Of a stretch of DNA of 64,000 bases, positions 1,984 through 36,480 are shown piece after piece. Each line of letters starts with the position of its first letter. The first letter of the stretch is position 1. The stretch is from Rhodothermales bacterium. GTDB taxonomy: Bacteria; Bacteroidota; Rhodothermia; Rhodothermales; Bin80. The translations under genes and the position numbers were made by a program. Location of the stretch: contig CATQHT010000003.1 in the NCBI GenBank assembly GCA_958296045.1, positions 2,316,501 to 2,380,500 on the forward strand, written 5' to 3'. The notes under the pieces were generated by a model, which was not told where the DNA came from, searched no databases, and saw only the letters and a program-made list of their open reading frames with translations.

Positions 1984-4094
1984 CCCAAGTTTGTCAATGT
2001 AGTGGATTTTTTTCGTGAGGTAACACATCCCTGACATACAGGGATGGTCAGAAGGGCGGGTCTTACCCGTGTGTTTTACATGTTCACGTGCCCTTTAGCG
2101 GGGCGTCTTGCTTTCATTCTGCGGGTGTACGTGCCGGTTTTGAGCCCCATCGCGCGGAAGACTTTACGGTGGAACGGCTTGAGGTCCTGGTCTTTCTTGA
2201 GCAGGGTGCAATGGGTTGCGTTTTGTGGGAGCACGGTTGTTACACGATGCATCTGGTTGAGCTTGACCTTGAGTGTGCCCCAGCTGCTGTGGATGTCGAC
2301 GGTTCTCAAACGGCTGCGTATCAGATGCGCTGCGTGAAAGGCGAGAATGGACAGGAAGAGGTGGGCTTCTATGCGAAGGTCCCGACTGTGGTAGATCGGA
2401 CGTAATCCGAGATCGGACTTCATGGTGCGGAACGTGCGTTCGATCTCTCCTAGCTGCCAATAGGTCTGTGCGATTTTCTTGACCGACCATTCCGCGTGGC
2501 TGGTGCGCAGTACATACCCGCCGAGGGCCTCCGTACATGCCTCGTAGGCAGGCCTCTGTGTGAGGCAGATCTTTTCGGCGTGGGTGCTACCAGCCTTCCT
2601 GGTCACTTTAACATCATACTGGTAGGCCACCTGCTTGTACTTTTCTATGAGTCGGCCCACCCGGATCTGCACCTTATCGTAGTTTTTCAGACGTCTGGGC
2701 AGCGCAAGTCCCGCGTTCAGGTGCGCGATGGCCTCCTCGAATTTCACACGCTTTGCTCCAACAATCTGGTCGCTGACTGCTTGTCGGGCTTCGCTGTGCA
2801 GATACACGCGCCGTTCTCCTCCTTCGTCTGGGAGTGCCCAGGCACGCACGTCGACATCGCTGGCGGTTTTGAAGACTTGATCCGGTGCGTCTTTGGGTAC
2901 CGGCGGGGACTTCGTACGCTGCACGCAGATCCAGTCCAGATTCTGTTCGTTCAAATACGCCAGATTGGCCTCTGTAGCGATGCCAGCGTCCATAATCACC
3001 GTGGGCTTGGCTCCGTTCAGCTGTGCAATGGCCTGGTGCAACGTGGCAGGCTCACTGGCATTGCCCGGGAGGATTTCCGCCGTGCGGGGGAACCCCGATG
3101 CATCAATCATCAAGGCCAACGTCACCAGTGGGCAATCAGACCGTTTTTCCTTGCTGCGACCATGCCGCAGCAAGTCCCCTTTCTTGCGGCCCGTGTAGAA
3201 CACATTGGTCAGGTCAAAGAAGGCAATGGTTTCGCTGAATCCCAAGAGCTCCTTCGTGGTGCCGAAGAGTGCATCCATGATCGACTGACGGTGCTCGTAG
3301 AGGGCATCTCCGATACGGTAAAGGCTGCTCAGACTGGGGAGGTCGCAGTGCAGTAACTCCAGGATGCTGGATCGTTCGTGCATCCATTCATGCGTATGTC
3401 GTTCACTGCCGGGGGAGAGCATGCGCCCGGCCACCAGCGCCGTCGCCAGGTGAATCTGATCTTCGCGCAACTTCAGCATTCGCAAGAACTTTGCGAATCC
3501 CAACAGCTGCAACGCTTTCAGCGCCACACGTTCGCCTCCGACGGTACGAGTGTCGGTATGATGGACTTCATCAATGATGACAGCATCCCGGTCGTCGCGT
3601 GGGTCGTCCACGTTGTAGCCCTTTTCCAGCAGCTTCTCAACGATGGTCTCGCTGGTATGGCGGAGGCCTTCACTCTCAAACGCTAGGCGGCTCTGCCCTC
3701 GCAAGCCCTCGTCAATATGGAGGATCAATGCGCGCCATTGTTCTTTGGGGATTGCGAAGGATTGGCCCAGGTTGAGGACAGTCCGCTGTTTAGGAGCGCC
3801 CTTGATACGGTGGCATTCGACCAGCGCGTAGCTGGTGGCCTTGGCACCTGATTTAAGGATGCGTGTCTTAGCGCGGATGTACATGCGTGTGAGCGTGCGG
3901 GTATCGGGTGCCCATGCGTCAATATACGGCTTTGCAGCGAAATGGTTCTGGACCATTCCACTACATTGGGTATTTTTGAGAAAAAAAGGTATCAAAGCCA
4001 TATGGATCATAGGTATAACACATAATTTGAGGCCATATTGCCACAAAATAAACTCCGATTTCGCTGCGCATGGAGGGAAATTGACAAACTTGAG
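1984..4094 (-). mobile_element. IS1634-family insertion sequence, copy 1
   Basis: A 2,111-bp element with inverted ends CCCAAGTTTGTCAAT (left) and the complement of CTCAAGTTTGTCAAT (right). It is flanked by a 4-bp direct repeat TTAC (1980-1983 and 4095-4098) and inserted in the type III mod gene. It carries one intact transposase gene. Its ends are nearly the same as those of the 295-bp MITE at 47053-47347, for which it is the obvious relative and possible source of transposase. Confidence 0.88.
2076..3884 (-). CDS. IS1634-family transposase
   Basis: A DDE transposase of the IS1634/IS4-like superfamily. The frame is open to 4046 (656 aa), but the likely start is the ATG at 3884, giving ~602 aa beginning MYIRAKTRILKSGAKATS, as in relatives. 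Visible motifs are the first acidic block (FFDLTNVFYTG), the VIMDAGIATE block and the C-terminal YWQLGEIERTFRTMKSDL block that supplies the catalytic Glu. This is the only undamaged one of three related copies in the window. The copies at 39442-41242 and 51483-53268 belong to a second, somewhat diverged subgroup and are frameshifted. Confidence 0.9.
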   Translation of the reverse strand: MYIRAKTRILKSGAKATSYALVECHRIKGAPKQRTVLNLGQSFAIPKEQWRALILHIDEGLRGQSRLAFESEGLRHTSETIVEKLLEKGYNVDDPRDDRDAVIIDEVHHTDTRTVGGERVALKALQLLGFAKFLRMLKLREDQIHLATALVAGRMLSPGSERHTHEWMHERSSILELLHCDLPSLSSLYRIGDALYEHRQSIMDALFGTTKELLGFSETIAFFDLTNVFYTGRKKGDLLRHGRSKEKRSDCPLVTLALMIDASGFPRTAEILPGNASEPATLHQAIAQLNGAKPTVIMDAGIATEANLAYLNEQNLDWICVQRTKSPPVPKDAPDQVFKTASDVDVRAWALPDEGGERRVYLHSEARQAVSDQIVGAKRVKFEEAIAHLNAGLALPRRLKNYDKVQIRVGRLIEKYKQVAYQYDVKVTRKAGSTHAEKICLTQRPAYEACTEALGGYVLRTSHAEWSVKKIAQTYWQLGEIERTFRTMKSDLGLRPIYHSRDLRIEAHLFLSILAFHAAHLIRSRLRTVDIHSSWGTLKVKLNQMHRVTTVLPQNATHCTLLKKDQDLKPFHRKVFRAMGLKTGTYTRRMKARRPAKGHVNM

Positions 4095-5077
4095 TTACGT
4101 ACCAGATCAGTCGGCTTGGGAGTCGCGAATACACCCTTTCTTCCAAAGATATGATTCAACTCTTTCGTCGCGTTCGTCGCTGTTCCAACATCTTGCCAGA
4201 TCGTCGCCACTGAGCGCCCCTTCTCCCGCGCTTCGTCCAAGAATCGTTTGTAGTAAGGCTTCGCACGTCCTGTCTTACCAAACACGATACGGCCGTTCTT
4301 GAGCGCCTTTCGATACTTTTCCTTGCCGAAACGCCAACACCGACCCTGGGGCGGATAGTATCCCCGACCGGTGGCCGGGTTGACGATTTCGTAGGTGAGA
4401 TTGGGCCGCACGTTTGGAGCATCCATTGGATCGAGAGTCCAAGGGCCGCGCGGGTCATTGTCGAGATTCGAGAAACCACTCTCGTTCACTGGCAATGCTC
4501 GGATCTCAAAGTGGTTACCGTCTTTCGTGTATCCTAAGATGTGATTGTGACCCAACGACACCCCAATGTCGTTTTGCTTGCTCTTCCGGTGATTCCAGAC
4601 GATGCTCGCCAGGAAGTTTTCCTCGCCAAACACTTCGTCCATGAGACAGCGCAGATGATGCACTTCATTATCATCGATGGATACGAAGATCACTCCATCC
4701 TTCCGCAGCAATTCGCGAAGTAGCTTCAGGCGTGGCATCATCATGCAGCACCACTTGTCGTGCCTGGTCAGGTCGTCGCGATCCACGACTTTGCCCAGCC
4801 AGTCACGGATCAAGGGCGAATTCACGCTGTCACTGTACGCCCATCCCTCGTTGCCCGTGTTATAGGGTGGGTCAATGTAGATGCACTTGACTCTTCCGTG
4901 ATTAGTTGGCAGCAAGGATTTCAGAGCGGCTAGGTTGTCTCCGTGTATTATGAGATTGTCGTGCAGACTTGCCCTTGTGCTCAGTCCCTTTTCCCTCACT
5001 GGCAACAGCTCGTGAAAGGGTACGGACAAGTGATGATTCTCCACCAAGATTTTTCCCTTGAATTGAAGCTGCGGCAT
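4095..5077 (-). pseudogene. mod: Type III methyltransferase Mod, 5' segment
   Basis: The N-terminal two thirds of Mod start at an ATG at 5077 (MPQLQFKGKILVENHH). Visible motifs are HGDNLAALKSLL and the catalytic YIDPPYNTGNEGW (DPPY, target-base motif IV). The frame is colinear with type III Mod proteins until 4099, where the IS1634-family element interrupts it; beyond that the translation reads element sequence and stops at 4007. With the other segment, a complete ~530-residue Mod can be reconstructed. The gene is therefore a recent insertional pseudogene, not a decayed one. Confidence 0.88.
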
Positions 5078-17186: not shown

Positions 17187-18272
17187 TTAGCACACAAGTC
17201 GCGCCATTTGGTCGATCGTCAACGCGAGTATGCCGAACCCAAGATGACATAGCACCTTCGCATGACCACGTACGCGAATATGGCGACCGCCATATTCGTC
17301 CTTGAGACGACCAAAGACGCGCTCGACGGTCGAACGCTCGTTGTAGCGTACGCGCTCTGGTGGTACCCATCCGGCCGCACGCTGCGCCTTCGCCTCACGC
17401 TTTTTCGCCGCCTTACGTGCGCGTGTACGCGGGTTCGCATCAATGATCGGCACATGCCCAAGGCTCTCGCTGTGAAGGCGTATCTCCTTCGCATCATAGG
17501 CGCTATCCATCACATCATACAAATTCGTGACCCGCTTCGCAGACTTCGTAGCCAAGGGAATGGCCACCTGACTATCATGCACCGACGCAGACGTTACCAG
17601 GTAGCTGATTGGTACACCCCCGTCGGCCACATCTGCGTGCAGCTTATAGCCGTTCCAGCTCTGCCGGTAACCCTTAGCATTGCGCTTAGCGCCTCGGTTG
17701 CACTCCCCGGGCAAATCTTCTTCCATCTCCGGCAGACTCATGTCCAACTGACGTACAAGGCGTCGTTGCTTTTTTGGAGGTGTTTCTCCCTTACACGGTT
17801 GATCGTGCGTGTCTTTGGCCAGCGCGGACTTCTTCGTAGCAGGGCGCTCGCGCGCCTTAATCGCCGTAGAATCACGTGAAAGATGTCCGACGATCTCTCC
17901 TTCGTAGGACTCGTCGATCAGTGCACGATGCACCTGATCGGGCAGACACGACTGCGCAAACTCCCCGAAAGCGCGTGAAAAGGTCGACTCGCTGGGAACC
18001 TCGTGTTGATGCGTCCACCCACACATGCGGCGCAGCTGTGGGTCCGAGCAAATCCGTTCGATCAGCGCGCGTGTCGTATCGATGTTGTAAACCGCCTTAG
18101 CAACAAACGCCCGCGCAAGCGCCGCACGACTCTTCCGCGGACGCCCGCGCAAGGCCTTCGAATCATCGTCAATAAAGCGCTCAACGCGAGCGATCTCCAA
18201 CACGCCCAGTAGCTTCTTCTGCGGCGCGGTCAGAGAACCGAGCAGTTCCTCCGCAAAGGAGAAGAGCATCAC
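17187..18272 (-). CDS. DDE transposase (IS4/IS5 superfamily), copy 1
   Basis: A 361-aa transposase with a DUF772-like N-terminal region (VPSESTFSRAFGEFA), a first acidic block around GHLSRDSTAIKA, a second at VMDSAYDAKEI and the C-terminal ERSTVERVFGRLKDEYGG block with the catalytic Glu. It starts at ATG 18272, only 97 bp from the divergent IS110 start. It differs from the copy at 27016-28101 by two residues (Ser/Arg and Ala/Thr in the C-terminal third). The frame is intact. Confidence 0.9.
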   Translation of the reverse strand: MMLFSFAEELLGSLTAPQKKLLGVLEIARVERFIDDDSKALRGRPRKSRAALARAFVAKAVYNIDTTRALIERICSDPQLRRMCGWTHQHEVPSESTFSRAFGEFAQSCLPDQVHRALIDESYEGEIVGHLSRDSTAIKARERPATKKSALAKDTHDQPCKGETPPKKQRRLVRQLDMSLPEMEEDLPGECNRGAKRNAKGYRQSWNGYKLHADVADGGVPISYLVTSASVHDSQVAIPLATKSAKRVTNLYDVMDSAYDAKEIRLHSESLGHVPIIDANPRTRARKAAKKREAKAQRAAGWVPPERVRYNERSTVERVFGRLKDEYGGRHIRVRGHAKVLCHLGFGILALTIDQMARLVC

Positions 18273-18369
18273 TTGGCGACTTATCCAAGAACATAGGTAA
18301 TATCAAAAAGGGCGGTCGCGCTGTCTGGCGCGTATACGGTTCAGGTTTCACCAAACAAGGAGGCACGTT

Positions 18370-19440
18370 ATGAGGCAGGTAGTCTACTTCGGCTTGGATG
18401 CCCATGTCCGCAACAGCGCTCTGGCGGCGGTGGGGATGGATGGCAACCTGTTCATGAGCAAGCAGCTCAGGACACGCGAGCTGTCGATAGTGAGTCGCAT
18501 TGTTGCGGTAGATGCTAAGGAAAAGATCTTGGCCCTGGAGGAGTCCACATTGGCTGCGTGGCTGGCAGGCATGCTGCGTGGTTACGTGGATAAGCTGGTG
18601 GTCTGTGATCCACGCCACAATGCGCTGATTAGCAAGAGTGCGAACAAGGACGACTTAGCGGATGCATTCCGCTTGGCCCGTCTGCTGCGGATGGGTGAGC
18701 TGCGACCGGTCTATCACTCGGATCATCAACACCGTGCCACCTTCAAGGCTATCGCGCAGCAATATCTCAAGCTGCGCGATAGCCAACGCAGTCTGAAGAC
18801 CATCATAAAGGCGAAGTATCGGAGAGCGGGTGTCTTGCGCGTAGACGGGACAACGGTTTTCAGCGCGGCACACCGCAAGAGTTTTTTGGAGCAGCTGCCG
18901 AACGCTCCCACTCGCGAGATGGTATCGGATGATTATGATGTGCTGGATTCAACGATCGCGGCACAGCAGAAGGCGCAAGACCGGATGATCCGAGAGGGCA
19001 GACGGTACCCAGAGATTCAGCAGTTCATGAAGATGCCCGGAGTGGGACCGATCAGTGCTCATGTCTTTGATGCGTTCATTCAGACGCCGCACCGTTTTGC
19101 GACCAAGCAGCGGCTTTGGCGCTACTGCAGGCTGGGCATTCGCACACGCAGTTCTGCTGGAAAGCCGCTGGCGTATAAACGTCTGGATCGCTCGGGCAAT
19201 GGCGAGCTCAAGGCCCTTAGCTATCGCGCCTGGATGAACGGCATACGCGGCGGTAAGGACTCGAATGAGGTGAAGCGCTTTTTTGAGGCCTCGCTGGATC
19301 GCACGAACAACCGCACACATGCGCGCCTGAATACGCAGCGCAAGATTCTGGCCGTGCTGTGGACCATCTGGAGAAAACAGACAGCCTACGACCCCAACCT
19401 ATTCTTTCCATTGACCCCAACCGCACAAGCGGTCTGCTGA
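18370..19440 (+). CDS. IS110-family transposase (DEDD recombinase), copy 1
   Basis: A 356-aa IS110-family recombinase. The N-terminal RuvC-like DEDD domain is visible as YFGLDAHVRN, LALEEST, VVCDPRHN and DDLADAFRLA. The C-terminal transposase_20 domain has MKMPGVGPISAHVF and the serine segment TRSSAGKPL. A strong Shine-Dalgarno AAGGAGG precedes the ATG. The family works with an RNA guide encoded in its non-coding end. Here the upstream gap is short and the downstream non-coding stretch is long, as in the IS1111 subgroup. The copy at 28199-29269 encodes an identical protein. Confidence 0.92.
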   Translation: MRQVVYFGLDAHVRNSALAAVGMDGNLFMSKQLRTRELSIVSRIVAVDAKEKILALEESTLAAWLAGMLRGYVDKLVVCDPRHNALISKSANKDDLADAFRLARLLRMGELRPVYHSDHQHRATFKAIAQQYLKLRDSQRSLKTIIKAKYRRAGVLRVDGTTVFSAAHRKSFLEQLPNAPTREMVSDDYDVLDSTIAAQQKAQDRMIREGRRYPEIQQFMKMPGVGPISAHVFDAFIQTPHRFATKQRLWRYCRLGIRTRSSAGKPLAYKRLDRSGNGELKALSYRAWMNGIRGGKDSNEVKRFFEASLDRTNNRTHARLNTQRKILAVLWTIWRKQTAYDPNLFFPLTPTAQAVC

Positions 19441-20199
19441 GCCATTAGCAGCAGCGAAGGCCTTGTGCATGGCAGCCGCGACAGGCGGATACGGGTAGCC
19501 GGGAAATGCTCCACAGCGAGTATAAATGCCGTACGGTAAGTTCGAAACATAGCGTAGCACCCCGGCCTCCATGCCCCATATGACTATAGATCCCATTAGT
19601 GGGAATCTCACAAACGAGCCTGGCAATCGAAAAGCCCTACCAACCGTCATGCACATCCGTTACCCCGCTGGCTACCAGCCCATGCACTGACCCCTCGCCT
19701 ACGCACGGCTCTACTGCAGATGCGGTCCTGACCGGGAGTCACGCGCGACCTGAAAAATCTCGCCCATTTTTCAGGATGGGGGACCTATGGGCTTGACTTT
19801 CTTTTTGAAACGAGCCTCGCCGCTCCAGTGGACATGGCTGTCCCGTTATGTTAGGGATTGTCTTCGCCCAACACCACGACCTCGCTCAACGCCACATTGC
19901 TCGGATCACACCAAGCCCCTCGCGCACGTTCGCGGGCTTTTGCTGGACGACTCCGTCCGGTTTGCGCATACATGCTTCGCGCTCCAGACGCAGCGTGTCT
20001 TTTACTGCGCGGCACCAATCAAGTTGCATTGTTGCTTCGCGATTCCGAAACTATCCAACATTCGCGATCAGGCCCGTTCCCCCACAAGGTATACCCTAAC
20101 GGGCGCATACTATTACGATACCCACGACGGAGGTGCCACCTCTTCTCCCGCGCCTGCGGAGGGAGTACTGGCCGTTTTTCGGGCTTTTGCAAGAGGCTC
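19441..20199 (+). other. Non-coding end of the two-transposase element, possible bridge-RNA region
   Basis: About 760 bp without a convincing gene lie downstream of the IS110 transposase and run to the inverted repeat at 20199. It must contain the IS110 right end, any guide RNA, and the leader of the host DDE element. A perfect 10-bp hairpin (CCTGAAAAAT, 7-nt loop, ATTTTTCAGG) lies at 19749-19775, repeated at 29578-29604. It has no U-tract on either strand, so it is not an intrinsic terminator. Its position fits a structured RNA, which is inference. Confidence 0.4.
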
Positions 20200-20863
20200 G
20201 CGTGTTACCACCCTTTTCGTTTGTGCAGGGAAATGTAGCAAAGCGACCACGAGAATCCACATGATTATAGTGCTGCTCTATATAGTCGTCATCGTAGGGG
20301 AGATACAGTACATGGTATCTTGCCTTGGGCGATGCGCTATACCAGAGAATGGAATCATATGTCTTGGTCATCTGAAGCTTCGCCAGATTATGCGATTCTG
20401 CACGCCGCTTCCAGATAATGTTATTTCGGAATTGCTTCCACCCGAAAACAGCATCCATGCATGCCTTCAGGTAATGAGACGCAGACGTATCACAGTGCAG
20501 AAAAATTATGCCAGTTGGCTTAAGAATGCGCTTCATTTCAATCAGCCTGATGGCCATGAAGCACATGTAGGCACCCATGCCTTGCGAGTGAGCGTGCACC
20601 GCACTCTCGATGGCCTCCATCAAACGTGGATGCTTGTTCTTCAGGTCCCTTACCCAGTCGTCGTGCACGTCCTCATCCCAATTCCACCTGTCTTGAAAGC
20701 TTGCCCCTTTTGCCAAGCTATCCGGGGTGGCGTGAAAGTCCCTGCTCTTGTTGAATGGCGGATCGGTGGCAATCAGATCAACCGTCTTGGCATTCATGCC
20801 ACGCATCACATCCAAATTATCTGCGTGAAATACCGTTCTGTTGTTCCAGTTGGGTTCTGCCAT
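20200..20863 (-). pseudogene. DNA methyltransferase-HNH fusion, 5' segment
   Basis: The N-terminal half of the split beta-class methyltransferase starts at ATG 20863 behind a very good ribosome binding site (AGGAGGT, 9 nt upstream). Motifs are VFHADNLDVMRGM and the catalytic LIATDPPFNKSRDF (DPPF), then MKRILKPTGIIFLHCD. The authentic sequence ends near GGNTR at 20204, after which translation enters the mobile element and stops at 20096. Together with 16079-16935 it encodes a complete ~490-residue enzyme. Its disruption parallels that of the type III mod gene. Confidence 0.87.
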
Positions 20864-21529: not shown

Positions 21530-21639
21530 CGCGAAGGCTTTTTCAGCGGTCCTCCCGAAGCCGGGCAAGGACACTGAGTATATCGTGCGCGACCTCCTGC
21601 ACCTCGACAGCGACCCGGGGCTGTATGCTCATCTCGAGC

Positions 21640-21904
21640 TCGAATGCGGTAGTGAGGGCAAGTAGTCGATCAGGGGGGTGGTGCCATACCAGTAGCAAGG
21701 CTTCTTGCTGGCACCCTTTCTGCTGTAGCGTTTGCCGCAAAGCGCTTCGACCTCCGCAGCCATGACGGTCAGGATCATTTTCAGATGCAGACTCGGCCAG
21801 TTGACCACGTGAGCGATGAGGTCAACCAAGCTCATCTTCGAAAAGGCTTCCTGAAGCCCTGTTATTCGCCCGTCAGCCGTGATTGTGATCGTAAACGCGC
21901 TCAT
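21640..21904 (-). pseudogene. IS256-like transposase, N-terminal fragment (copy B)
   Basis: The fragment starts at ATG 21904, whose first bases overlap the stop of the upstream dead paralogue (ATGA at 21901-21904). It encodes ~85 residues ending in the IS256/mutator N-terminal block AAEVEALCGKRYSRKGASKK and WYGTTP, homologous to EAEVDAICGARGKHNKTG in copy A. Beyond ~21690 the sequence leaves the family, and about 110 bp further lies the group II intron fragment. The catalytic domain is entirely absent. Confidence 0.75.
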
Positions 21905-22983
21905 ATTCTCGTAGAGTGGGATTGATTTAAGCCGGTAAGCTGCTCACGCAGCGCCGGAAGATACGCGGCGTGGCCCAAGCGGTACATCCCTGCTTCCGTG
22001 GCCATCAGATCAAGGGCCATAAAGGCACTGCGCTGATCCGATGGCATCCAGTCTGAGCGTTGGCGCAGGCGCCCACAGAGTCGCTGGCTGCGCCAGACGC
22101 GTAATCACGCGCGTCGTCGCTAAGCTGCGCCCCAATGCCATATAGGCCCCAGCACGGTGCAAGGTGCGCGTCTCTTCCAGCCCCTTGGCTAACGCGCGGC
22201 CAGCCGACTCATTGATGCGGTGCACCCGTTGCTGCAGCCGCTTCAGGGCCCCAAGAGCATCACCATATTCCAGCGCGCCCATGCATGATGCAGCGCACGG
22301 CCCACCTTCAGACGATACTCCTGCGGCAGAAAGCTCAGTACCCGCGCACGCTTCTCAGCAAGGCAGCGCTGCACAACGATGCGGTCACCCGAGTGGGCCA
22401 CCAACGCCCGCCTGAGCCCCACGGCGCCTGGTATTGCGTACAACAGGCTCTCGCTCATGTGCAACCCGCGGCGCGCAAGCTGCTCCAGCATTCCCTTTAA
22501 TGCCTCCGTATGCTGCAACGAGCAGGCTGCCAGGCTCAATATCCGCTTGTACCCGACTTCCGTGACGCCCACAACGAAGGTGTATTGCACCGCCTGGACG
22601 CATGCGGCACTCATCCAGAGAGCCACGAAGTTCTCGTCAGTAAACGAGCGTGTGCAAAACTCCTCATAAGCACGATCCGCACGGTCTGCTTCCAGCCGAT
22701 AATCCGATAAGAGCGGGTCTTCAGCTTTCTCTTGACGCTCGGAATCGCTACCACATGTCGAACACAATGGTGCATCCGACTTACCATCTGTGTTACCCTG
22801 CGTCTCTGAACCCGCATCGTCAGCTGCCACCAGAGATTGCAATGGAGGATCGGGCCACTCGCGACCCAGAAGCTCAACTATCAGGTTGCATTGCTTCAAG
22901 AGATACAACAGCCAGTCGCCGACGCCCGCCAAAGCGTCGCCGGATACCGCGGGTGTTACAGGATTCTGTTCAGTTAGTGGCAT
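21901..22983 (-). pseudogene. Catalytically dead IS256 transposase paralogue (copy B)
   Basis: The start is ATG 22983 (MPLTEQNPVTPAVSG) and the stop TGA 21901-21903, 360 codons overall. Two compensating frameshifts (about 22260 and 22065) make it a pseudogene. After an N-terminal extension of ~110 residues it aligns with the IS256 catalytic domain (ARRGLHMSESLL, VVQRCLAEKRARVLSFLP, LAKGLEETRTLHRAG). The three catalytic acids are replaced: Asp to Ser in the WMSAACVQ segment, Asp to Pro in AIPGAVGL, Glu to Thr in SLATTRVITRL. The paralogue in copy A shows the same losses, so they predate the frameshifts. Confidence 0.8.
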
Positions 22984-23039
22984 CGATAAAGAGGGCGATG
23001 TGGTAAGGGAATTCAGACATCCCTCCCTCTCCCGTGAAG

Positions 23040-23684
23040 CCGACTTTCCACTAACAATGGCTCACCCCCCGGTGACCCAGCACGACCTTCTCGCCCTCGG
23101 TCGTGATGCCCATGGCGATTATCATCTGCATACCGGCCAGGTACTTGCCGTCAAGTAGGAGCACCGCAAAGGTCTGATCGTCGAACCGGCGAGCCTTAAA
23201 GTCCTTCAACAGCGCGGCCGTGCGAGCAACAAACGCACGGCCTACGCTGCTGGCGCTCAATCCCGTGCTTTCTGCAAAGAACCTGCGCCGCCTGTCTGTA
23301 GTTGCGCCGCGACAAGCCACTGAGCAACCCAAGGGTCACCTGTACCTTATCAATAATCCCATGCTTGCTCATAAGACGGTACGTTTCCAGGGGCCGCTCC
23401 TTTATTGTACGCACATTTCGTACTCGCGGAACGCGAATCGGCAGCCGCTTCAAACCGATGCGGATGGAACCGGGATTCGTACCCCAGCGCTGAAAACCAG
23501 TCTTGTTGTGCTTTCCACGAGCGCCGCATATGGCATCAACCTCGGCCTCCATGGCCCTTGTGGCGAGCTTGAGAAGAAAACGATCGAAGTATACAAGGCA
23601 ACGGGCCAGATTGATATAAGCCCTTTGCGCAAGTTCCCAGAAGCTATCAAAGAGGGATGGAGTCGGCGTACAAGTATCAGTCAT
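23040..23684 (-). pseudogene. IS256-family transposase, frameshifted and truncated (copy A)
   Basis: The start ATG 23684 overlaps the stop of the dead paralogue (ATGA). The N-terminus reads SFWELAQRAYINLA, then EAEVDAICGARGKHNKTG and WGTNPGSIRIGLKRLPI, clearly IS256/mutator type. A one-base frameshift near 23285 moves the frame into RFFAESTGLSASSVGRAF and FAVLLLDGKYLAGMQM, which contains the intact first catalytic Asp. The sequence stops after GHRGVSH at ~23045, so the second Asp and the Glu are missing. Copy B's leader follows immediately. Confidence 0.82.
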
Positions 23685-23798
23685 CGGACAGGGGTAAGGT
23701 TGAACAACGTCTTACGGAGTTGGGGAAGATAGGCTCGGAATGTGCCAACGTTTTTGCAACACATTTTGGATTGGGATTAGGGAGTATTGAAGGCGTGA

Positions 23799-24860
23799 TC
23801 ATGGCTGGTTGGGGTTGTTCTGCTCGGCGGTTCCGGGGCTTGATCCGGGTTGGCTTTGTCGTCGGTAAGGGTGAGGGTCTTGCGGCTTGTTGATCCAGGC
23901 GGCTTTAGGTGGCATAGGCACGAACGGCACGCCGTTTGGAAAGCGTTCCGGATGGTTTTGGTATGCCTCTCGGAGCGTCTTTTGCCGTCCATCCCGCACC
24001 GCTTCTACTTCGCCGTAGTGCACAATGGCAGGGCGCATCAGCGCTAAGCCTGTATGATAGTGCTCGTGATTGTACCAGTCGAGGAAGCGGCTGGCCCAAG
24101 CCTTGGCATGTTCCAGCGAGCCAAAGTGTTTCGGGTAGGTCGGCCGATACTTCATCGTCTTGAACTGCGCCTCTGAGTAGGGATTGTCGTTGGAGTTGTA
24201 CGGACGCGTGAGCGACCGGTCGACACCCAGCTCGGCCAGCAGTTGGGCCACCGTTTTTGACGTCATGGCACTGCCACGGTCGCTGTGGATGATCAGCTGG
24301 TTGGGCTCAATACCCTGTGGGAAGCATGTCGTCTCGATCAGCGTGCGTGCGAGCAGGCCAGACTCACCTGGCGCAATAGCCCACCCCACCACGTAACGGC
24401 TGTAGACGTCCATGATCACGTATAACGCATAGTGAACCCACTTCTGTGGCCCGCGCAGTTTTGTGATGTCCCAAGACCATAGCTGGTTGGGCGCCGTCGC
24501 CAGCAGCTCCGGCTTGCGGTATGGTGGGTGCGTTCGCTGATGGCGTCGCTCGCCGACTTCATTCCGCTCTGCCAGTATCCGGTACATGGTTCTCCAGTGA
24601 CACAGATAGCATGCTTCATCCAACAGCGTCGCGTAAATCTGACGAGGCGGCATGTCGTAGAACCGGGCACTGTTGAGTATGGCACGGATCCGTTCGCGCT
24701 CCGCCGAAGGTATACGGCGGAGCCCTGCGCGCTTCTTGCTGGGACGTGACCGTGACTTCGGATTCATGGCCCGATACAACCACCACCGGGATACCCCCAT
24801 CCACCTGCAAGCCTCGGCCTTCGGGATCGCCGGTGTACCCATGGTTAGTAACTGCATCAT
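23799..24860 (-). CDS. IS3 transposase OrfB
   Basis: A 353-aa retroviral-integrase-like (rve) transposase. The independent start is ATG 24860, two bases after the orfA stop; the frame is open further upstream so that a -1 shift in orfA makes an OrfAB fusion. DDE blocks are visible: LWSWDITKLRGPQKW (first Asp), IIHSDRGSAMTSKTVA (second Asp) and NSNDNPYSEAQFKTMKYRP (Glu). The proline- and asparagine-rich tail is longer than usual. The frame is intact. Confidence 0.92.
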   Translation of the reverse strand: MMQLLTMGTPAIPKAEACRWMGVSRWWLYRAMNPKSRSRPSKKRAGLRRIPSAERERIRAILNSARFYDMPPRQIYATLLDEACYLCHWRTMYRILAERNEVGERRHQRTHPPYRKPELLATAPNQLWSWDITKLRGPQKWVHYALYVIMDVYSRYVVGWAIAPGESGLLARTLIETTCFPQGIEPNQLIIHSDRGSAMTSKTVAQLLAELGVDRSLTRPYNSNDNPYSEAQFKTMKYRPTYPKHFGSLEHAKAWASRFLDWYNHEHYHTGLALMRPAIVHYGEVEAVRDGRQKTLREAYQNHPERFPNGVPFVPMPPKAAWINKPQDPHPYRRQSQPGSSPGTAEQNNPNQP

Positions 24861-24862
24861 GG

Positions 24863-25276
24863 CTATTCTCCCGGGCCGATCTCGTCGGTCCCAAACAGCG
24901 CGCAGAGTTTTTTTTGGACATCCATGATCGTTTCTGCATTCGCCAACTGTCGCTTCAGCCGCTTGATCTCCACTTTGTGCTGCCGCAGTGCCTCCGTATG
25001 CCTTTTGCAAGACCCGCATTCTTGTTGGGACCCCTCAGACGAGGCCCGCAGTTGACGTCGCCATCTCGTTAGTGCGGAACTGTACAGTCCTTCGCGTCGC
25101 AGCAGAGCGCCGATCTGCCCTGGCTCCGTACAAGATTCCACCTCCTGTAGGATCCGCCGCTTATACGCCATGGAGTAGCGCCGCCGCTTCGGACGTAGGG
25201 GCACCTCAGTGGGCGGCACGCCAGGGCGGCTATGCTGGGCGGTTGAATCAGGCTTTTTCATGGTTGTTGCATTCAT
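24863..25276 (-). CDS. IS3 OrfA (helix-turn-helix)
   Basis: A 137-aa DNA-binding OrfA. It has the basic RRRYSMAYKRRILQEVESC entry, a helix-turn-helix around LLRREGLYSSALTRWRRQL and a C-terminal leucine-zipper-like coil (HKVEIKRLKRQLANAE). The start is ATG 25276. Near its end the coding strand carries eight consecutive A (plus-strand T8 at 24908-24915). Confidence 0.9.
   Translation of the reverse strand: MNATTMKKPDSTAQHSRPGVPPTEVPLRPKRRRYSMAYKRRILQEVESCTEPGQIGALLRREGLYSSALTRWRRQLRASSEGSQQECGSCKRHTEALRQHKVEIKRLKRQLANAETIMDVQKKLCALFGTDEIGPGE
24908..24915 (-). promoter_or_regulatory. A8 slippery site for -1 frameshifting in the IS3 element
   Basis: On the minus strand orfA reads CAA AAA AAA CTC. 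Slipping back one base continues as ACT CTG CGC in the OrfB frame (KKTLRAVWD...), yielding an OrfAB fusion transposase. This is the standard expression strategy of IS3-family elements. Any stimulatory hairpin was not assessed. Confidence 0.7.
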
Positions 25277-26378
25277 TTAGTGGACGAGGAAATCCAGCCG
25301 CATACCCGTCGCGCCATGTGCAATGCTGCATAATCGCTGAGTCACAAAGTGTTGCGCATATTATAGGCACACAGAGGCTGAATAGGCCACACGGCGCAGC
25401 TGCGCTTCGTGTTCCAGAAGGGCCAAAGCCATCCGTTCGCGTCGCTGGAAGACCACGCTGGCAGGGGTCTGCAGGCTACGACCAATGGCATTCATGAAGT
25501 GCATCACACGCAGTCCCCGGTCGAGTCTAAGCAGCATGCCGGTGCGCTGAACCGTCAGCGATTGCTCCAGACCCTCCGCTAACACCTTCGCTGCGGGACG
25601 ATTGACGCGCACCAAGTTCTGGTGAATATGAGTGAGAACGCGTTCAGCTTCCAGGGCATCATACCCATTCCATGCAAGGCGGAGACGATGGCGATACACG
25701 GGAATAAGATCTTCTGGAAGACCACAGGTGACGTGATCCAACAGCGTATTGAGACAGCGCTGTATCACGACCTTGGGGCCAAACACCTCCTGCACCGCCG
25801 ATTGAAGTCCGGTACCGCTGGGCAGCACACAGAGCAATCCCTTGGCGGCTGATAAACCACGGTCCGACAGCGACCGCACGAAGGATACAAGCGTGGAGAC
25901 GTTCTCAGGGTAGCACTCAATGAGGCCGAGCATGCGTCGGTAGCCCGTTAGGGTCAAACCTACGCCAAGCACGATGTTCACACCGCGAGGGCACAACCCA
26001 CGTAGCCAGATCGCTACGATCGGGTCGCCGTCCAGACTGCGCGAATGCAACAGCTGCCATGCTTCCTTCAACGGTGCGGCATCCGGCTCTGTATCCTCGG
26101 CCGCCGCAGTAGCTCGGACCTCTACGGACGGTGGTACAGGGGGCTGCTGCACTGGGCCAATCGGCCAATCGGCCGTCAATTGTTGCAGTATGTCGGTGCA
26201 AAGCTTCATCAGAAGCCTACGCGAGTCATCCGGGGGAGTAATCTGACCATCTACAGGAGCCTCAGTGCTCCCCAAGACAGGCTGGGACGAGTTCATATGA
26301 ACGAAAAGTAAGGGTGGAAAATATCGGCCACCCCCACAGCAACTCACCGAAACTCACCTAATCCATGGCGCAATGCCG

Positions 26379-27015: not shown

Positions 27016-28101
27016 TTAGCACACAAGGCGCGTCATTTGGTCGATCGTCAACGCGAGTATGCCGAACCCAAGATGACATAGCACCTTCGCATGACCACGT
27101 ACGCGAATATGGCGACCGCCATATTCGTCCTTGAGGCGACCAAAGACGCGCTCGACGGTCGAACGCTCGTTGTAGCGTACGCGCTCTGGTGGTACCCATC
27201 CGGCCGCACGCTGCGCCTTCGCCTCACGCTTTTTCGCCGCCTTACGTGCGCGTGTACGCGGGTTCGCATCAATGATCGGCACATGCCCAAGACGCTCGCT
27301 GTGAAGGCGTATCTCCTTCGCATCATAGGCGCTATCCATCACATCATACAAATTCGTGACCCGCTTCGCAGACTTCGTAGCCAAGGGAATGGCCACCTGA
27401 CTATCATGCACCGACGCAGACGTTACCAGGTAGCTGATTGGTACACCCCCGTCGGCCACATCTGCGTGCAGCTTATAGCCGTTCCAGCTCTGCCGGTAAC
27501 CCTTAGCATTGCGCTTAGCGCCTCGGTTGCACTCCCCGGGCAAATCTTCTTCCATCTCCGGCAGACTCATGTCCAACTGACGTACAAGGCGTCGTTGCTT
27601 TTTTGGAGGTGTTTCTCCCTTACACGGTTGATCGTGCGTGTCTTTGGCCAGCGCGGACTTCTTCGTAGCAGGGCGCTCGCGCGCCTTAATCGCCGTAGAA
27701 TCACGTGAAAGATGTCCGACGATCTCTCCTTCGTAGGACTCGTCGATCAGTGCACGATGCACCTGATCGGGCAGACACGACTGCGCAAACTCCCCGAAAG
27801 CGCGTGAAAAGGTCGACTCGCTGGGAACCTCGTGTTGATGCGTCCACCCACACATGCGGCGCAGCTGTGGGTCCGAGCAAATCCGTTCGATCAGCGCGCG
27901 TGTCGTATCGATGTTGTAAACCGCCTTAGCAACAAACGCCCGCGCAAGCGCCGCACGACTCTTCCGCGGACGCCCGCGCAAGGCCTTCGAATCATCGTCA
28001 ATAAAGCGCTCAACGCGAGCGATCTCCAACACGCCCAGTAGCTTCTTCTGCGGCGCGGTCAGAGAACCGAGCAGTTCCTCCGCAAAGGAGAAGAGCATCA
28101 C
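27016..28101 (-). CDS. DDE transposase (IS4/IS5 superfamily), copy 2
   Basis: A 361-aa near-identical twin of the protein at 17187-18272, with the same motifs (SRDSTAIKA, VMDSAYDAKEI, ERSTVERVFGRLKDEYGG). It reads Arg in LHSERLGHVP and Thr in DQMTRLVC where copy 1 has Ser and Ala. It is intact and divergently transcribed from the IS110 gene, with 97 bp between the starts. Confidence 0.9.
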   Translation of the reverse strand: MMLFSFAEELLGSLTAPQKKLLGVLEIARVERFIDDDSKALRGRPRKSRAALARAFVAKAVYNIDTTRALIERICSDPQLRRMCGWTHQHEVPSESTFSRAFGEFAQSCLPDQVHRALIDESYEGEIVGHLSRDSTAIKARERPATKKSALAKDTHDQPCKGETPPKKQRRLVRQLDMSLPEMEEDLPGECNRGAKRNAKGYRQSWNGYKLHADVADGGVPISYLVTSASVHDSQVAIPLATKSAKRVTNLYDVMDSAYDAKEIRLHSERLGHVPIIDANPRTRARKAAKKREAKAQRAAGWVPPERVRYNERSTVERVFGRLKDEYGGRHIRVRGHAKVLCHLGFGILALTIDQMTRLVC

Positions 28102-28198
28102 TTGGCGACTTATCCAAGAACATAGGTAATATCAAAAAGGGCGGTCGCGCTGTCTGGCGCGTATACGGTTCAGGTTTCACCAAACAAGGAGGCACGTT

Positions 28199-29269
28199 AT
28201 GAGGCAGGTAGTCTACTTCGGCTTGGATGCCCATGTCCGCAACAGCGCTCTGGCGGCGGTGGGGATGGATGGCAACCTGTTCATGAGCAAGCAGCTCAGG
28301 ACACGCGAGCTGTCGATAGTGAGTCGCATTGTTGCGGTAGATGCTAAGGAAAAGATCTTGGCCCTGGAGGAGTCCACATTGGCTGCGTGGCTGGCAGGCA
28401 TGCTGCGTGGTTACGTGGATAAGCTGGTGGTCTGTGATCCACGCCACAATGCGCTGATTAGCAAGAGTGCGAACAAGGACGACTTAGCGGATGCATTCCG
28501 CTTGGCCCGTCTGCTGCGGATGGGTGAGCTGCGACCGGTCTATCACTCGGATCATCAACACCGTGCCACCTTCAAGGCTATCGCGCAGCAATATCTCAAG
28601 CTGCGCGATAGCCAACGCAGTCTGAAGACCATCATAAAGGCGAAGTATCGGAGAGCGGGTGTCTTGCGCGTAGACGGGACAACGGTTTTCAGCGCGGCAC
28701 ACCGCAAGAGTTTTTTGGAGCAGCTGCCGAACGCTCCCACTCGCGAGATGGTATCGGATGATTATGATGTGCTGGATTCAACGATCGCGGCACAGCAGAA
28801 GGCGCAAGACCGGATGATCCGAGAGGGCAGACGGTACCCAGAGATTCAGCAGTTCATGAAGATGCCCGGAGTGGGACCGATCAGTGCTCATGTCTTTGAT
28901 GCGTTCATTCAGACGCCGCACCGTTTTGCGACCAAGCAGCGGCTTTGGCGCTACTGCAGGCTGGGCATTCGCACACGCAGTTCTGCTGGAAAGCCGCTGG
29001 CGTATAAACGTCTGGATCGCTCGGGCAATGGCGAGCTCAAGGCCCTTAGCTATCGCGCCTGGATGAACGGCATACGCGGCGGTAAGGACTCGAATGAGGT
29101 GAAGCGCTTTTTTGAGGCCTCGCTGGATCGCACGAACAACCGCACACATGCGCGCCTGAATACGCAGCGCAAGATTCTGGCCGTGCTGTGGACCATCTGG
29201 AGAAAACAGACAGCCTACGACCCCAACCTATTCTTTCCATTGACCCCAACCGCACAAGCGGTCTGCTGA
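28199..29269 (+). CDS. IS110-family transposase, copy 2
   Basis: A 356-aa protein identical to that at 18370-19440, with the same DEDD N-terminal and serine-containing C-terminal domains and the same AAGGAGG ribosome binding site. Complete identity to copy 1, while the outer parts of the element differ, suggests recent spread or gene conversion. Confidence 0.92.
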   Translation: MRQVVYFGLDAHVRNSALAAVGMDGNLFMSKQLRTRELSIVSRIVAVDAKEKILALEESTLAAWLAGMLRGYVDKLVVCDPRHNALISKSANKDDLADAFRLARLLRMGELRPVYHSDHQHRATFKAIAQQYLKLRDSQRSLKTIIKAKYRRAGVLRVDGTTVFSAAHRKSFLEQLPNAPTREMVSDDYDVLDSTIAAQQKAQDRMIREGRRYPEIQQFMKMPGVGPISAHVFDAFIQTPHRFATKQRLWRYCRLGIRTRSSAGKPLAYKRLDRSGNGELKALSYRAWMNGIRGGKDSNEVKRFFEASLDRTNNRTHARLNTQRKILAVLWTIWRKQTAYDPNLFFPLTPTAQAVC

Positions 29270-35729: not shown

Positions 35730-36350
35730 AGTTCAGACCCTGGCACCCGCCCCAGCGGCTGATACAGCCTGCCGCGCGCCAAAGAAGACGTCTGCCGCTG
35801 TGCGGTGACCCAAGCACTTGCGTGGACAATTGTTCAGTATCGTCTGTACCCGCATTGCCGCTGCTGGCTCAACGGTGTGGAAGTTGGTCGCCTTCGGACA
35901 GTATTACCGTACCAGGCCATTGGTGTGCTCGTTCAGACCACGCTCCCAGGAATGGAACGGTAGCGCAAAGTAGTACGAGGCCGAAAGGGCCTGGGCGATT
36001 TGCTGGTGATGGGCGAATTCCTTCCCTTTGTCCGCCTTAATGGCAAGCACCCTATCCTTCACCGGGTTCAGACACGCTACGATCACGCGGCGGACACCGA
36101 TCGCAGCCTTCGATGGTACCAACGTAAGAAACGTGAAATTCAACGCACGACCGTGTGTCCAGCAAAGGCTGACATGTTCAGCAGCAGTCAGTCCTACCAG
36201 AGTAGAAATCAGAGCTCTCCAGTTCGGGTAGCATGGAAGCGGGAAACTTACTTCATGAAGCCTACCGACACGGCCTCCCTTGGGGAGGTTGCGAGTGTTC
36301 GGGGATGCAGCCGCATACCAGCGGTGCTTATGGTAAAAATGAAGCAACAT
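35730..36350 (-). pseudogene. IS30-family transposase fragment
   Basis: The minus strand reads ADKGKEFAHHQQIAQALSAS, YYFALPFHSWERGLNEHTNG and, beyond a stop or frameshift, LNNCPRKCLGHRTAADVFF. This is the C-terminal catalytic half of IS30 transposases (normal motif TxDNGKEF; Asn is Lys here). Upstream residues (LVPSKAAIGVRRVIVACLNP) fit the same family. The N-terminal helix-turn-helix is not recognisable. Confidence 0.75.
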
Positions 36351-36357
36351 AACGCGT

Positions 36358-36480
36358 TACATCAAGAACAAGCAAGAGGCGATGCGCCTTAAGCAGTGGC
36401 TCCAGGAAGCCTGGGAATTGCCCACCTACGCGGAAGCACGGGCGGCACTTAGGGCTGGCGAAATAATAACCTATCAGATG
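36358..36480 (+). pseudogene. Small IS256-type transposase relic
   Basis: The frame TRYIKNKQEAMRLKQWLQEA followed by WELPTYAEARAALRAGE resembles the helical segment after the QRC motif in mutator-type transposases. Only ~40 codons remain. Confidence is limited by the short length. Confidence 0.35.

Follow-up and report, generated by a model that had tools for sequence, protein, structure and literature searches.

A catalytically dead transposase paralogue upstream of an IS256-type transposase forms part of two-gene mobile elements in the Rhodothermaceae

The window (by which we mean the whole 64,000-nucleotide stretch of Rhodothermales bacterium DNA analysed here) carries parts of two kinds of two-gene element, types A and B, in which a transposase-like gene devoid of the catalytic triad (gene 1, dead) precedes an IS256 transposase gene (gene 2, live). 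Their remains, and what has been inserted into them, are as follows.

25375 to 26377, minus strand: type-B two-gene element, 5' part; left inverted repeat ~26377-26339, ATG of dead gene 1 at 26296; 92% by blastn against the intact B element L004, element bp 1-1001.
~23751 to 25374, minus strand: IS3-like insertion interrupting dead gene B, with an OrfA-like frame (25276-24863) and an integrase-like one (25019-23799); the name IS3 comes from ORF reading alone.
23681 to 23750, minus strand: dead gene B, 3' end, closing in a TGA that runs into the ATG of live B (ATGA, 23684-23681); intact copies have the same 4-nt overlap.
23070 to 23684, minus strand: type-B IS256 transposase gene, 5' part, frameshifted and interrupted by the type-A insertion; ORFs 23196-23684 and 23051-23332; 94% to B bp 983-1663.
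21674 to 23069, minus strand: type-A two-gene element, 5' part (L013/L014 subtype), inside live B; left inverted repeat ~23069-23042; 93-95% to L010 and L013, end sequence as in L014.
21901 to 22983, minus strand: dead gene A, with a frameshift near 22243-22282 and a stop that overlaps the start of live A (ATGA, 21904-21901); 359 codons when intact (homologues 359 aa).
21629 to 21904, minus strand: live A transposase, truncated to an N-terminal remnant of 91 codons; the blastn match to the A element stops at ~21674.
36295 to 36450, plus strand: a 156-bp piece of a type-B transposase gene, standing on its own and matching bp 1795-1950 of the B element (blastn, 86.5%).

The copies in the window are nested and both are broken. 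The left inverted repeat of A (~23069) lies within the B transposase gene, hence the type-A element was inserted into the type-B one, and the description of the two as tandem copies, given in an earlier note on this DNA, has to be withdrawn; bp 983-1001 of the B element resume on both sides of the IS3-like insertion (blastn). Other parts of that description hold, namely both ATGA overlaps (21904-21901 and 23684-23681, read from the sequence), the 323-aa dead protein reconstructed by joining 26296-25375 to 23730-23681 and the IS256-like nature of the dead frames, which show Pfam Mutator/IS256 similarity (the 5' ORF of dead B, 25361-26347, matches PF00872 with E 1.2e-7). Near-identical blocks in the same orientation (17187-19440 and 27016-29269) flank the nested elements on both sides, each made up of a 361-aa transposase-like ORF and a divergent 356-aa IS110-like ORF, names that we take from ORF reading; a third 356-aa ORF sits at 4007-5077, and a 255-aa ORF at 20096-20863, apparently cut short, has a DPPFNK motif and reads as a site-specific DNA methyltransferase. 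One two-gene element nested in another, as in the window, is also met at L054 (G015 C150), where element C2 seems to have inserted head-on just past the stop of dead gene F1, with ~36 bp between both stops.

PF00872 matches occur at 52 places in the window's genome, many of them paired, and the same genome holds eight intact two-gene elements with both genes open, five of type A (2,462-2,463 bp; dead 359 aa, live 428 aa) and three of type B (2,664 bp; dead 323 aa from ATG, live 433 aa). In all eight, the stop of gene 1 overlaps the start of the gene 2 transposase by four nucleotides (ATGA). Aligned flanks place the ends of the A element at GGCGGTGAGCC...GGCCCACCCCC, with target duplications TGGGTTCAG and CATGGGCAC, those of the remaining A copies being imperfect, and B ends in an inverted repeat of ~39 bp with the duplication GCGCAGGA in one copy. 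Pairs from other genomes, which we assign to lineages C (G015), D (G011) and E (G013), are enclosed by inverted repeats as well, and target duplications were found for E (ATTCAAAG) and C2 (~9 bp); where clear, duplications measure 8-9 bp, and in some copies they are imperfect or absent. From A to E the two genes thus lie within one pair of inverted repeats, in departure from the usual single-gene IS256 organisation, and the dead gene is part of the mobile unit. The overlap of stop and start is confined to A, B and D, the intergenic gaps being 10 nt in C, 27 nt in E and 59-98 nt in F.

Pieces of type A also travel elsewhere. In G000, at C3:813708, 1740164, 2631697 and 2276180 and at C2:704182 (L098-L102), a repeat of >1.6-2.3 kb, its copies 97-99% identical, contains the last 558 bp (3') of the type-A transposase gene, lacking the right end, as an open frame of ~176 codons from CxxH onward; here a type-A 3' piece seems to have been captured and spread by another mobile unit. 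Eight IS256 frames of '197 aa' in the genome were considered as a third kind of dead gene and dismissed, the five that we read being captured type-A 3' pieces inside another repeat.

Measured against D183, D243, H268 and E354 of live A as reference residues, gene 2 has the D, D, E and CxxH-type His in A and their equivalents in B, C, D and E, while the F copies end before the Glu; with 221.5 bits (A) and 197 bits (E) it passes the 150-bit cut-off of the NCBIfam model transpos_IS256 (NF033543). Gene 1 stays below that cut-off (58-90 bits for six dead proteins), its homology being clear nonetheless, and in every scored dead protein the DDE triad is absent. Since profile-profile alignment (hhalign) reaches probability 100 over 252 columns, the residue alignment behind this statement is not in doubt. 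The first Asp is replaced by Ser (A), His (B), Gln (C) or Arg (D) and is Asp in E, F and the partial G003 protein; the second is Pro or Ser in 12 of 12; Thr, Asn, Lys, Ile or Val stand for the Glu in all 11 scorable cases; and the CxxH His, still present in E, F and G003, has gone from A-D. That both Asp, the Glu and the His after QRC are substituted in the window, as first noticed there, is correct, but within type B the Arg in place of the first Asp is peculiar to the window copy, intact B having His. Likewise, the idea of one common set of losses stands across the family for the second Asp and the Glu (all scorable proteins), and falls for the first Asp and the His. We note that in E, F and G003 (L025, L044/L054, L051, L052, L070) these two are kept though the second Asp, and the Glu where that part is present, are gone, and that the transposases partnering E and F read DAT at the first Asp instead of DGK.

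For the architecture of both proteins, ISCth4 TnpA offers a guide, with DD at 1-56, NDB at 56-108, HTH at 108-165 and a catalytic domain with helical insertion thereafter (PMC7780238). Gene 2 encodes a normal IS256 transposase of the order DD-NDB-HTH-DDE, the AF2 model of live A having DD helices at 26-34 and 37-56, NDB strands at 70-96, HTH helices at 106-140 and a long helix at 151-169. The model of dead A, by comparison, predicts a helix (21-40), disorder (42-86), a second helix (90-111) and then, with high confidence, the RNase H fold and insertion helices; its best PDB match by Foldseek is the ISCth4 transposase (E 2.4e-9), and the underlying alignment, a shallow one of 8 sequences, leads to the prediction of no more than a single dimerisation helix. 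This N-terminal helix is similar to the DD helix seen in related transposases (LRLYLLRHFSDLVRHL versus VKLHLLQHYAELARLL), whereas NDB columns are empty or filled by an acidic linker and both end-binding domains, NDB and HTH, are absent. What had been regarded as an added N-terminal extension is therefore the transposase's own dimerisation helix plus a linker in place of NDB/HTH, and the WP motif said to end it, although present in A and B, is not conserved outside these two. The NDB stretch carries a net charge of +3 to +12 in live proteins, and that basic stretch is missing from the dead ones, with whole-protein net charges of -15 to +5 for dead proteins and +10 to +26 for live partners. Some basic residues are retained in ID helix alpha-9, through which the dead protein may contact DNA. 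As modelled, then, the dead protein consists of a dimerisation helix, a disordered linker and an RNase H fold that includes the helical insertion domain; it has no usable DDE triad.

Relatives were sought with an HMM of the dead proteins. Dead proteins with their own type of N-terminal part occur in G011, G013, G015 and, as a partial copy at a contig end, G003, which together with the window's genome gives a range of three genera within one family (Rhodothermaceae). Searches of 245 genomes from the class and 395 sampled from the phylum, both listing matches at E <= 1e-50 only, gave none outside that family; the full-length-type matches there start at ~position 88 or later and are transposases. 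A pattern scan with a 4-row alignment of dead proteins, which relies on two short motifs and to which lineages E and F would be invisible, picked out only Rhodothermaceae bacterium bin80 (G015) among genome contigs and returned no match from viral contigs. Phage records gave no match, and the plasmid tblastn matches listed start at or after ~residue 69 and are IS256 transposases or unannotated IS256-like stretches, none of the four examined being annotated as a two-gene pair. With a near-complete partner defined as a PF00872 match over at least 300 of 379 positions within the family, each of 19 such transposases has a dead-gene match upstream on the same strand (in two, across a later insertion); three of these 19 upstream dead genes are damaged by stops or by loss of the left end.

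Both genes have a shared history. Dead proteins form one clade (support 100/99), which stays intact (98/99) when the catalytic windows are masked, so that convergent losses forcing a false dead clade can be rejected. The masked tree also unites the live partners in a clade of their own (92/91), to which the other IS256 transposases of the phylum do not belong; the unmasked full-length tree does not resolve this clade. Built separately, the dead and live trees have matching topologies, A;(E,F);(B,(D,C)), and dead and live distances are correlated with a Mantel r of 0.96, the best of 720 permutations (1/720; six lineages), as is expected from one founding pair followed by joint descent. Dead genes have dN/dS of 0.12-0.39 in diverged pairs where changes are numerous enough (synonymous sites are saturated in the F1 pairs), and live C genes 0.25-0.29. 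We conclude that the dead gene has a single origin, is under purifying selection and has been kept and evolved together with a working transposase. These results go further than the earlier note, which proposed a conserved accessory gene rather than local decay and asked whether further genomes have homologues without the catalytic acids immediately upstream of a full-length IS256 transposase: such homologues exist in G011, G013 and G015, within shared inverted repeats, and none of the dead family retains Asp/Asp/Glu. Hence the accessory-gene reading is supported, while the function of the subunit is something we infer.

IS256 transposition proceeds through an asymmetric dimer whose protomers do different jobs: in ISCth4, one protomer holds the end by NDB and HTH and the other, its NDB unfolded, gives the active site in trans (PMC7780238). 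ISCth4 TnpA dimerises through DD, is in monomer-dimer equilibrium and alone catalyses all steps (PMC7780238). A DD helix without NDB or HTH could fit the position of the second protomer and would bring no catalysis to it, and for this reason we prefer to see in the pseudo-transposase a built-in, heterodimerising and dominant-negative regulator, a proposal from domain logic to which we would give about an even chance. In such a scheme, translation of gene 1 would feed that of gene 2 via the overlapping stop and start, and the pseudo-transposase would pair with the transposase through the dimerisation domain, standing in for the protomer that has to provide the active site in trans and can do without a hold on the DNA. 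The outcome would be a dimer bound to the end yet inert, and the element would thus encode its own dominant-negative governor, made before the transposase and probably at least as abundantly. The ISCth4 mechanism may, however, not be valid for these proteins, and a subunit present in every copy could equally be required for transposition.

The latter would make the dead protein a structural subunit of an obligately heteromeric transposase with catalysis left to the partner, and could mean that it enforces a one-ended (asymmetric) first strand transfer or holds the recipient end or the target. Strict co-diversification, a dead gene at all 19 near-complete partners, the retained RNase H/insertion-domain fold with its basic alpha-9 positions and the division of labour in the asymmetric IS256 dimer (PMC7780238) all speak for it. 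Yet in a two-subunit complex of the ISCth4 type a protein without end-binding domains or active site could fill the role of neither protomer, its overall positive charge is lost and other IS256 transposases need no partner, ISCth4 TnpA acting alone (PMC7780238), so to our minds an obligate subunit is a possible but somewhat unlikely solution. The specific form of this idea, in which a separate dead protein has taken over one place in the asymmetric dimer, is needed for transposition and determines the end to be cut, strikes us as rather doubtful.

A role outside the transpososome, for example as promoter repressor, target selector or link to host replication, would account for dead genes evolving under constraint, and the first genes of IS1 and IS3-type elements are indeed regulators; given that DNA-binding domains are missing, that no extra domain is present and that conservation sits in the transposase fold itself, we consider it improbable. 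That dead genes are decaying or chance neighbours, i.e. functionless remnants of tandem transposases, might be suggested by the broken copies of the window and by some close A dead-gene pairs with dN/dS of at least 1, which rest on very few changes and are uninformative. Intact ORFs in six diverged lineages, dN/dS of 0.12-0.39 where there is power, a single origin, matching trees and the enclosure of the dead gene in the mobile unit leave this with hardly any credibility. Our preference hence stays with the built-in inhibitor.

Gene 2 is of a known IS256 type, and what is new is the dead paralogue as partner gene within the element. Likeness to the IS256 family (p-MULT 1) extends from the NCBIfam cut-off, D/D/E and CxxH to inverted repeats and 8-9 bp duplications, and the best structural match of the dead fold is a family member, ISCth4 TnpA (PDB 6xg8/6xgw/6xgx). 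All 109 p-MULT 1 elements surveyed are described as simple ISs of IS256-family organisation (PMC3942029), whereas here a second gene, the dead paralogue without DNA-binding part, belongs to the element. Mutator-type elements with genes beyond the transposase do exist in ISAzba1 and ISKra4 (p-MULT 4), their extra genes being recombinases, reverse transcriptase or ORFs of unknown function (PMC3942029), but none of these is described as a dead transposase paralogue. A literature search, with subscription papers and ISfinder outside its scope, retrieved no description of a dead/live two-gene pair for IS256.

As for its working mode, the dead protein may be likened to the Tn5 inhibitor protein (Inh), a form of the transposase without DNA-binding part that pairs with the full-length enzyme and inhibits it. 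Inh is an in-frame product of the transposase gene with active-site residues kept; in contrast, the dead protein comes from a separate, deeply diverged upstream gene rather than from an alternative start in the same gene, and has lost catalysis, too. InsA of IS1 and OrfA of the IS3 family, which are regulators, share with it a gene upstream of, and overlapping, the transposase gene, except that they carry a DNA-binding part and no catalytic fold, while the dead protein has it reversed, a catalytic fold without DNA-binding part.

IS256 elements often mobilise resistance genes, and how their asymmetric dimer is controlled is an open question. A natural, separate and dead transposase half provides a direct handle on dimer asymmetry, and the same pair informs how insertion sequences limit their own spread. 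Contrary to what automatic annotation assumes, a dead transposase gene next to a live one is not necessarily junk.
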